DNA of 40,252 nt, taken from positions 1-40,252 of the forward strand of contig LLYT01000015.1 of assembly GCA_002049545.1 (NCBI GenBank). Direction: 5' to 3'. This document shows, in pieces, positions 29,788 to 40,252 of this stretch (position 1 is the first letter of the stretch; the number at the start of each line of letters is the position of its first letter). The position numbers and the translations under genes are program-made. The notes beneath the pieces are model-generated. The model was not told the origin of the DNA, ran no database searches, and worked only from the letters and a program-made list of their open reading frames with translations. The stretch comes from Deltaproteobacteria bacterium tcs-42 (lineage in GTDB: Bacteria > Desulfobacterota > Desulfuromonadia > Desulfuromonadales > Geopsychrobacteraceae).

Positions 29788-29840
29788 GACTGCTTTCACG
29801 CAGTCTGGTTGTGAACTGTGGGGACAATCTCCCCCTGCAG
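29788..29840 (+). promoter_or_regulatory. Structured spacer between rpmI and rplT
   Basis: Two hairpins lie in a 112-base spacer: GACTGC/GCAGTC (29788-29793 with 29800-29805) and GGGGA/TCCCC (29820-29824 with 29830-29834), the second flanked by CTG/CAG. In E. coli L20 represses this operon by binding mRNA; whether this spacer is a similar operator is only a possibility. Confidence 0.35.
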
Positions 29841-29892
29841 ATCCGGCCACGGCAGATGCCGAAATACTATTTAATGAGAAGGAGCAAGAGAG

Positions 29893-36651: not shown

Positions 36652-36720
36652 TGATTATTTGGGTGCCTGGGGATGCATAAACATTCTTCGACAGTATGAC
36701 TGAAGGTGGTAAGTTCTGTG

Positions 36721-37467
36721 ATGAAAATACGTATGACATTCTTGCTTCTGATCGCAGTTTCAAGTGTCTTGCTGGGTGCCTGTGAAGCAGGTGTCTACCA
36801 TTCTGTCAAGCGCGGTCAAACTTTGTATCGTATCAGTCGTACCTATGATATTGATGAGGCCTATCTGGCTCGTGTCAATGGTATTTCTGACCCCTCACAG
36901 TTGTCGATTGGTATGCGACTGTTTATCCCCGGAGCTGATCGGGTTAAACATGTTCAGATCGTCAAGCCACAAACAGCCGGTAAAAACGTTCCTGCCCCGC
37001 CCAAGAAAAAAACCGCTGTAAAACAACCAGTACGTAAAAAAATACCCTCAGCACCAGCTAAGCCCCTTTCTCCTGATGTAAAAGCAACACAGGTCAAAAA
37101 ACTGCAATGGCCGTTACGCGGAAAAATCGTTCGCTCTTTCAGCAGCAAAACAAAAGCTGGTCGAGGAAAAGGGATTGAAATATCGGTCCGCTCGGGAAGT
37201 CATGTTGCGGCAGCAGAGGCTGGCAAAGTTATTTATAGCGGGGATGGTGTTAATGGTTACGCTTTTCTGATTATTCTGCAGCATGAAAATGATTTTTTTA
37301 CTGTCTATGGATTTAACCGTAAAAATCTGGTCAGGCAGGGGGATTTTGTCAGTCGGGGTGAGCAAATTGCCCTGTCTGGTACGCCACCGTCAGGTGGCAA
37401 ACCACGGCTCCATTTTGAAGTACGTAAGGGGAAGCAAGCTGTAGATCCGATTTTGTACTTGCCTTAG
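36721..37467 (+). CDS. nlpD: NlpD-like lipoprotein with LysM and degenerate LytM domain
   Basis: A 248-residue envelope protein. The signal peptide ends in lipobox LGAC, so Cys21 is the lipid anchor. A LysM domain (about 26-70, HSVKRGQTLYRISRTYDIDEAYLARVNGI) binds peptidoglycan; a Lys/Pro-rich linker (about 85-120) follows; the M23/LytM domain (about 128-248) has lost catalytic residues: KGIEIS for HxGxD and RLHFE for HLHFE. This pattern is that of NlpD/EnvC amidase activators used in cell separation. The start at 36721 follows AAGGTGG; an in-frame GTG at 36706 would precede it. It lies directly before rpoS, as in E. coli. Confidence 0.92.
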   Translation: MKIRMTFLLLIAVSSVLLGACEAGVYHSVKRGQTLYRISRTYDIDEAYLARVNGISDPSQLSIGMRLFIPGADRVKHVQIVKPQTAGKNVPAPPKKKTAVKQPVRKKIPSAPAKPLSPDVKATQVKKLQWPLRGKIVRSFSSKTKAGRGKGIEISVRSGSHVAAAEAGKVIYSGDGVNGYAFLIILQHENDFFTVYGFNRKNLVRQGDFVSRGEQIALSGTPPSGGKPRLHFEVRKGKQAVDPILYLP

Positions 37468-37525
37468 TGTTCTTACGTATTTAGGCTAAGTCTTTGAATG
37501 TTATCGGGTTATTGTGGAGGTTGCG

Positions 37526-38464
37526 ATGGATGATTTCAGTTCAAAAGACGGGAGTCCTGATAAAGGTGATGATCTTGAGGTTGTAAAAGAAAAAAAGCTA
37601 AATGAAGAAAAAACGTATTCTTTTAATGATGAGCAGGCGACTGCGGATGCTATCAAGCTCTATCTCAAAGAAATTCAAAAAAGCCAACTACTCACTGCCG
37701 CAGACGAACGGGAACTTGCCGGACTGATTGCGCAGGGTGATGAAGTTGCCAGAGAGCGCATGATTGAATCAAACTTGCGCCTCGTGGTTAAAATCGCCAA
37801 ACGCTATATGAATCGTGGTTTGCCTTTTCTCGATTTGATCGAAGAGGGGAATCTGGGACTGATCAAGGCGGTTGAAAAGTTCCAGATCAGCAAAGGGTGC
37901 CGTTTTTCCACTTATGCAACCTGGTGGATTCGTCAAGCGATAGAACGCTCGATAGTCAACCAAAGTCGAACGATTCGCCTGCCGGTTCACGTTGCTGATG
38001 ATATCAATAAACTGGTAAAAATCAATCGCGATCTGGTGCAACGTTTAAAGCGTGAACCAGAAGTGAATGAAATTGCCGAGGCCATGGGGGGAGATGTCAA
38101 ATACGTGCGTCGGATGATGACTCTGGTCAAGAAAACTTATTCGATTGAGCACCCCCTGGGTGAAGGTGAAGATTATAGTCTGATTGATACCATTGAAGAT
38201 ACAAAACTTGTCGACCCTGGCAGTCAAATTGAGGATCTGGATCGTTTTGATCATGTTCAGGAATGGATGACCGATTTAAGTGAAAGCGAACGTGAAATTC
38301 TTGCCTTGCGTTTCGGTCTGGACGATTGTGAGCCACAAACCCTCGATACTATCGGGAAAAAGTATGGGGTCACCCGCGAAAGAATACGACAAATTGAAGC
38401 CAAAAGTCTGATCAAATTAAGAAAATCTATGGAGACTAGTCGCTCTGACGAAGATCACGACTAG
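37526..38464 (+). CDS. rpoS: RNA polymerase sigma factor RpoS
   Basis: A 312-residue group 2 sigma factor for stationary phase and stress. Region 1.2 has [21 protein letters not shown]; region 2 has [37 protein letters not shown] and [17 protein letters not shown]; region 4 has [28 protein letters not shown] long acidic N-terminus lacks region 1.1, arguing against RpoD. ATG 37526 has TGGAGG 5 bases upstream; the in-frame GTG at 37514 overlaps that ribosome site. Context after nlpD supports rpoS. Upstream control such as DsrA-type RNA is not visible. Confidence 0.95.
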
Positions 38465-40037: not shown

Positions 40038-40066
40038 TTGACACTCCAGCCTGATATTGTTATAAA
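40038..40066 (+). promoter_or_regulatory. Strong sigma-70 promoter upstream of the structured RNA
   Basis: TTGACA at 40038-40043, exactly 17 bases, then TATAAA at 40061-40066. The predicted start is near 40073, directly at the left edge of the structured region. It is among the best promoter matches in the window. Confidence 0.7.
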
Positions 40067-40073
40067 TTTTGTA

Positions 40074-40252
40074 ACGGGCGACTCGCAGCCCGTTTCCCTC
40101 AGTGACGGTGACAGTCCGTCCCTGTGTAACCGTGAGAGACATAGGAGGCCAACATCAGGATTATCACTCCGGGTAGCACCTCCCCGTCGCACCCATCGAA
40201 CGGGGTTGCCGGAGGTAAGTAACTCGCTACGTCGTGAGGCGGGCGGGAGAAG
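40074..40252 (+). ncRNA. Structured RNA cut by window end; possibly 5' part of a group II intron or a stand-alone small RNA
   Basis: No convincing reading frame. Hairpins in order: GGGC/GCCC (40076-40079 with 40088-40091), GACGG/CCGTC (40104-40108 with 40116-40120), CCTGTGT/ACATAGG (40121-40127 with 40139-40145), then nested CTCCGG/CCGGAG (40167-40172 with 40209-40214) and CCCCGT/ACGGGG (40182-40187 with 40200-40205). The order of hairpins, a GGCCAAC segment after the third, and a GTAAGTAACTCGC segment later recall domain I of group II introns such as Ll.LtrB, but the start reads GGGCG, not the usual GUGYG. Alternatively 40089-40101 can pair with 40235-40247 (12 of 13), closing a compact RNA. 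RNase P, tmRNA, SRP and 6S signatures were not found. Confidence 0.5.

Follow-up and report, generated by a model that had tools for sequence, protein, structure and literature searches.

The window, as the whole stretch of 40,252 nucleotides is called here, is one complete contig (C29) of a 2.55-Mb genome assembled in 121 contigs. Its right edge holds a compact series of features on the forward strand. A promoter-like TTGACA-17-TATAAA pair (40038-40066; TTGACA at 40038-40043, TATAAA at 40061-40066) is present as described in the initial annotation, with 11 of 12 matches. The eight bases at 40063-40070, TAAATTTT, are host DNA at what, judging from other copies of the element discussed below, is the position of a MITE target-site duplication, and the GTAAC at 40071-40075 represents, by comparison of left flanks and empty MITEs, both the outer tip of a MITE terminal inverted repeat and the IBS1 of a 5' exon. 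From 40076 to 40252, where the contig ends, lie the first 177 nucleotides of a group II intron, with a GGGCG 5' end and the start of domain I; this assignment draws on 30 identical copies, homologous starts in L085-L089, covariation, and continuation into a reverse transcriptase (RT) and DV in a relative. No convincing coding gene covers this stretch, in keeping with its earlier description as non-coding. Elsewhere, the window contains a match to the L20-Deltaproteobacteria ribosomal protein leader (RF03126, 50.6 bits; 29807-29884, forward strand) and, at 36706-38464, an NlpD-like LysM/peptidase ORF (36706-37467) followed by an rpoS-like sigma factor ORF (37514-38464), both judged from their translations only.

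That 40076-40252 forms a structured RNA, as had been proposed, is borne out by comparison with homologues. In a six-sequence alignment, the region yields 37 consensus pairs in six helices with 95.9% of cells paired, a percentage favored by derivation of the consensus from the same alignment on which it was scored. Compensatory, two-sided changes occur in 15 of the 37 pairs, compared with 7.0 in shuffles, none of 500 reaching as high a value, and with 2 to 4 in slid controls. By folding energy alone the region does not stand out, with a z of -0.90 and 40 of 200 shuffles folding equally well; it is covariation that marks it as structured. Following the first helix, the alignment places a domain I hairpin, GACGG...CCGTC (helix 2, 40104-40120; 100% of cells paired, two covarying pairs), a further stem (helix 3, 40121-40145; three covarying pairs), the sequence GGCCAAC (40147-40153), two stems with six covarying pairs between them (helices 4 and 5, 40167-40214; helix 4 is weaker, at 80.6% paired), and a local hairpin (helix 6, 40223-40247; 100% paired, four covarying pairs). 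The 13-position long-range helix of the initial annotation (40089-40101 with 40235-40247) can be drawn, but it is weak (80.6% paired, two two-sided changes across the homologues) and competes with helix 6. Searches of Rfam returned no match at the intron site at the gathering score and only chance matches there at E<=10. Group II models (D1D4-1 and RF00029) do match homologues of the intron, below their gathering scores; these models describe parts of the intron that the window does not include, namely a short segment of D1-D4 and DV/DVI. HEARO/IscB omega RNA, a first guess from the hairpin-rich start, was rejected as RF02033 has no match in this genome.

The last stretch of the window has 31 perfect matches, all located at contig ends and all in the same sense, and its final 127 bases (40126-40252, forward strand) are exactly what these 31 contig ends have in common, 127 being presumably the overlap length of the assembler. 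The window edge is thus a repeat of about 31 copies, many copies of one element having been collapsed by the assembler; what ends at 40252 is the assembled contig and not the biological element. The RNA does extend past 40252, as had been suspected, with its start at 40076, but it leaves the window solely because the contig stops there. Across 30 distinct copies the 177 nucleotides are identical; over the last 127 bases the assembly itself accounts for part of this identity, but over the first 50 it does not. Genomes with up to 101 group II introns have been described (PMC8919778), so some 31 copies is a high number and not a record. No RVT_1 domain was found across the assembly of this genome, and the intron interior, of about 1.7 kb if it resembles that of the relative described below, is therefore absent from it; a short, high-copy contig carrying this interior may have been dropped at assembly.

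The nature of the element is most readily seen in a relative. Among 147 related genomes, one (G118, "Geobacteraceae bacterium", of the same order and a different family) has a copy of the entire 5' region, 94% identical, whose contig, JAIVHC010000042.1, does not stop there. The intron begins with GGGCG at L043:1512, matches group-II-D1D4-1 (RF01998) at 32.4 bits against a gathering score of 35, and encodes a protein of 396 amino acids (L043:2161-3348) with RVT_1 and group II maturase (GIIM) domains that scores 408.8 bits against TIGR04416 (cut-off 300). No endonuclease domain was found in this RT/maturase. DV, with a CGC triad, and DVI follow the ORF, giving the canonical domain order DI to DVI, and the intron terminates in AAT. 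The closest solved RTs by sequence are those of group IIC, namely GsI-IIC (PDB 6ar1, E 6.5e-71) and 7uim (E 7.2e-65). Four homologues score 32.7 to 37.7 bits against the DV model RF00029, short of its gathering score of 40. An RT/maturase is encoded in domain IV of the intron in G118 and relatives, with the present genome showing an RT C terminus on contig C56 only. The RT/maturase and DV/DVI that the initial annotation had advised looking for downstream are thus found in the relative's copy, and both the structure and its reading as the opening of domain I of a group II intron, hence of a mobile retroelement, are supported by sequence comparison. By eye, the sequence upstream of the G118 intron (L040:1360-1511) resembles that upstream (L041) of an intron fragment in another genome, G024, in GCGCCTTGCAT.TGGCGC and ACTGCTGCGCC; this likeness may reflect another dispersed repeat, and a repeat may mark the site of the G118 intron too.

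The 5' boundary of the copies in this genome, GGGCG, does not match the literal consensus GUGYG, which had been raised as an objection to an intron. Besides G118, introns with related RTs occur in a Syntrophaceae MAG (73% RT identity), a Spirochaetota MAG (67%), "bacterium CPR1" (65%), and a Bacillota MAG (59%), and all five begin with GGGCG, the four just named in the form GGGCGA[CT]T[CT]G[CT]AG. A search method for organellar introns lists GUGCG, UUGCG, and GGGCG as 5' splice sites (PMC6867995). In each of these five relatives, the EBS1 predicted at one aligned column of domain I is complementary to that intron's own 5' exon (GCUAAG/CUUAGC, AUUAG/CUAAU, CUAA/UUAG, GUUAAA/UUUAAC, and GCUAG/CUAGC), amounting to 27 paired positions against 8 at the next best of 22 columns, a figure to be read as descriptive, the column having been picked by eye in one intron and the scan confined to the columns around it. 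The weight of the EBS1 evidence is in the fit of the predicted pairing in four further introns, and the matching of introns to their own exons is the best of 120 permutations. This pairing places the 5' splice site directly before GGGCG, and the five GGGCG homologues together with an EBS1 at one column indicate that GGGCG is the normal 5' end of the lineage, so that the objection falls. For the genome under study, whose intron interior is missing from the assembly, a corresponding EBS1 paired with GTAAC and an RT of the same kind would be expected.

With the G118 intron as a query, the 3' end of the intron was located at 21 contig ends of this genome. All terminate in ...CCATTCTATTCTCTGAT, always with ...CTGAT at the boundary, and comparison with empty MITEs sets the 3' terminus at GAT. 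These ends fold as a DV (CCGCC...GGUGG, a CGC triad, and a two-base UG bulge) followed by a DVI stem with a bulged, unpaired UAU near its end; one of them, on contig C56, retains an RT C terminus in frame. Four other DV/DVI-like matches to Rfam in this genome, at 35.4-45.9 bits (G000:C32:36900-36985, C67:54857-54942, C74:15067-15144, and C51:2129-2205), are situated inside contigs and are distinct from this intron; no RT was found in the assembly to accompany them.

To the right of these 21 ends, 15 flanks consist of one repeat, in either orientation, ending in GTTAC. Empty copies of this repeat, with no intron, measure 145 bp, carry the inverted ends GTAACT[AG]TTCA, and number at least 40 (40 were scored of 143 first-look candidates). 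Exact 8-bp target duplications flank 15 of 19 empty copies. The repeat, being short, non-coding, present in many copies, and bounded by terminal inverted repeats and target duplications, is a MITE. The intron is located exactly 5 bp inside its terminal inverted repeat, as GTAAC-intron-T[AG]TTCA, so that a filled site consists of an 8-mer, GTAAC, the intron, TRTTCA...GTTAC, and the 8-mer again; the predicted target site, written out, is GTAACTATTCA. For ten of the 15 right flanks of MITE type, a left flank carries exactly the same 8-mer, and for one more the two differ by a single mismatch; 16 displaced controls gave no match. The intron occupies one MITE end in 7 cases and the other in 8. The 15 MITEs that surround introns are 85-100% alike, 14 of the 15 are distinct, and some are internally deleted; the presence of identical introns in such diverged MITEs is most simply read as recent, independent retrohoming into pre-existing MITEs. 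The six remaining right flanks, which are not MITE sequence, start with TGCCGA, TATCCA, TATCCT, TATCTG, TGTCAG, and TGTTGA. All six thus begin, as the MITE end does, with T and a purine, which points to a role for the opening bases of the 3' exon as well.

In a search of 13 genomes of the same genus, the intron was found in none and a weak MITE match in only one; relatives of the MITE were detected in 20 of 98 related genomes. Two related genomes, G024 (L041, G024:C42:37121-37184) and G038 (L042, G038:C105:5913-5939), contain only about the first 64 and 27 intron bases, 5' fragments that copying from the 3' end of an element would not be expected to leave. An 8-bp duplication and a GTAA tip are traits of IS66, considered as the parent of the MITE; it was rejected because this assembly contains no IS66 transposase.

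The flank of the window's own copy conforms to that of the others in ending its 5' exon with GTAAC, the form found in 27 of the 30 distinct left flanks (GTAAT in two, GTTGC in one). Its right flank, sought as AGTTACTAAATTTT, yielded no partner in this search; the copy is nonetheless likely to lie inside a MITE as well. A strong promoter-like pair at the boundary is confined, among the 30 distinct copies, to this one: of the other 29 left flanks, two reach 11 of 12 matches, 19-30 bases further upstream, and the rest at most 9. The promoter is therefore outside the element, in site-specific host DNA, and its position at the boundary, which had been counted against an intron, loses its force. It may transcribe this copy of the intron.

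The explanation favored here, at a probability of roughly 0.93, is that the window closes with the 5' part of a mobile group II intron of a GGGCG lineage, without an endonuclease domain, that homes to the tips of MITEs. Against this explanation stand the lack of an RT in the assembly, a 5' end other than GUGYG, the six of 21 right flanks that are not MITE, and the missing right flank of the window's copy. The first of these points is also the one that would favor an ORF-less derivative whose copies are mobilized by an RT supplied in trans from another locus. That is an unlikely alternative given that the 3' end on C56 keeps the RT C terminus in frame and that an interior of about 1.7 kb could be a dropped short contig. 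The identity of the introns, the MITE-like GTAAC tip at nearly every site, and the 8-bp duplications around the composite are all also accounted for by a single capture of the intron by a MITE, with subsequent spread of the composite by the MITE's transposase. One capture would predict one end and one MITE sequence, whereas the intron is found at both ends, in 14 different MITE sequences, some of them with internal deletions, and at six sites with no MITE on the right, so that a single capture is quite improbable.

The two other readings concern the kind of RNA involved. A stand-alone structured RNA of about 180 nucleotides, the class left unnamed in the initial annotation, would be transcribed from the promoter at 40038-40066 and closed by the long-range helix; the good promoter-like pair just 5' and the fact that the helix can be drawn speak for it. 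Its probability is very slight, as other copies have no promoter at that place, the helix is weak, and the same RNA in L043 continues for 1.9 kb into an RT and DV. GGGCG is likewise the 5' splice-site motif of the CP group II RNAs, which have the permuted order D5-D6-D1-D4, no ORF, and an AGC triad (PMC8637638). L043 shares this motif but is unpermuted, with DI first, DV/DVI last, and an RT ORF inside, and its triad is CGC, which makes a CP group II RNA in place of a canonical intron barely worth entertaining.

Under the favored explanation of a mobile, MITE-homing intron, the MITEs were already in place through the action of a transposase, as is shown by the 8-bp target duplications around them. 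Intron RNA, transcribed from host promoters, would splice with the aid of its own RT/maturase and then reverse-splice into DNA, the choice of target depending on EBS1-IBS1 pairing with GTAAC and probably on the following T[AG]TT. Together these sequences make up both ends of a MITE that exists in at least 40 copies, and in this way the intron would have come to occupy about 31 sites, most of them 5 bp inside one or the other MITE tip. Splicing, retrohoming, and mobility are in this sense predicted from sequence.

Known systems provide partial parallels. The closest precedent is RmInt2, at home in either inverted repeat of ISRm17 (PMC5894124). There, as here, both inverted repeats of a DNA transposon serve as a home, providing targets on both strands; the intron of this genome differs in that it lives in a short, non-autonomous MITE, lies 5 bp from the tip, numbers about 31 copies compared with 7, and starts with GGGCG. 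RmInt2 belongs to class D. RmInt1, present in 10 copies in S. meliloti GR4, resides in ISRm2011-2 of the IS630 family (PMC5894124) and is similarly an endonuclease-less group II intron in an abundant insertion sequence, differing in that its natural site is within the insertion sequence and not at a MITE tip. Among the group II classes, IIC is the one that contributes the closest solved RTs. A short IBS1 and a CGC triad, both seen here, are traits of IIC introns. For such introns, the insertion site follows a terminator or is an attC site (PMC4424553), but the copies in this genome are preceded by no 5' exon hairpin: in the 40 nucleotides upstream of 30 copies, the mean z is +0.23 against mononucleotide shuffles, with only one of the 30 below -2. 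No paper on group II intron homing to MITE ends was found in a literature search whose coverage left out most subscription journals.

For genome assembly, the copies of this intron account for about 31 of the breaks in the present sequence, and the aligned EBS1 across the GGGCG family makes the target rule directly testable. In this species, the GGGCG intron lineage has probably become specialized on the terminal inverted repeat of a MITE, the dispersed ends of which would provide landing pads on both strands. In this way a mobile element would increase in number through homing to another's ends, with the MITE scattering the site in both orientations and the intron following.
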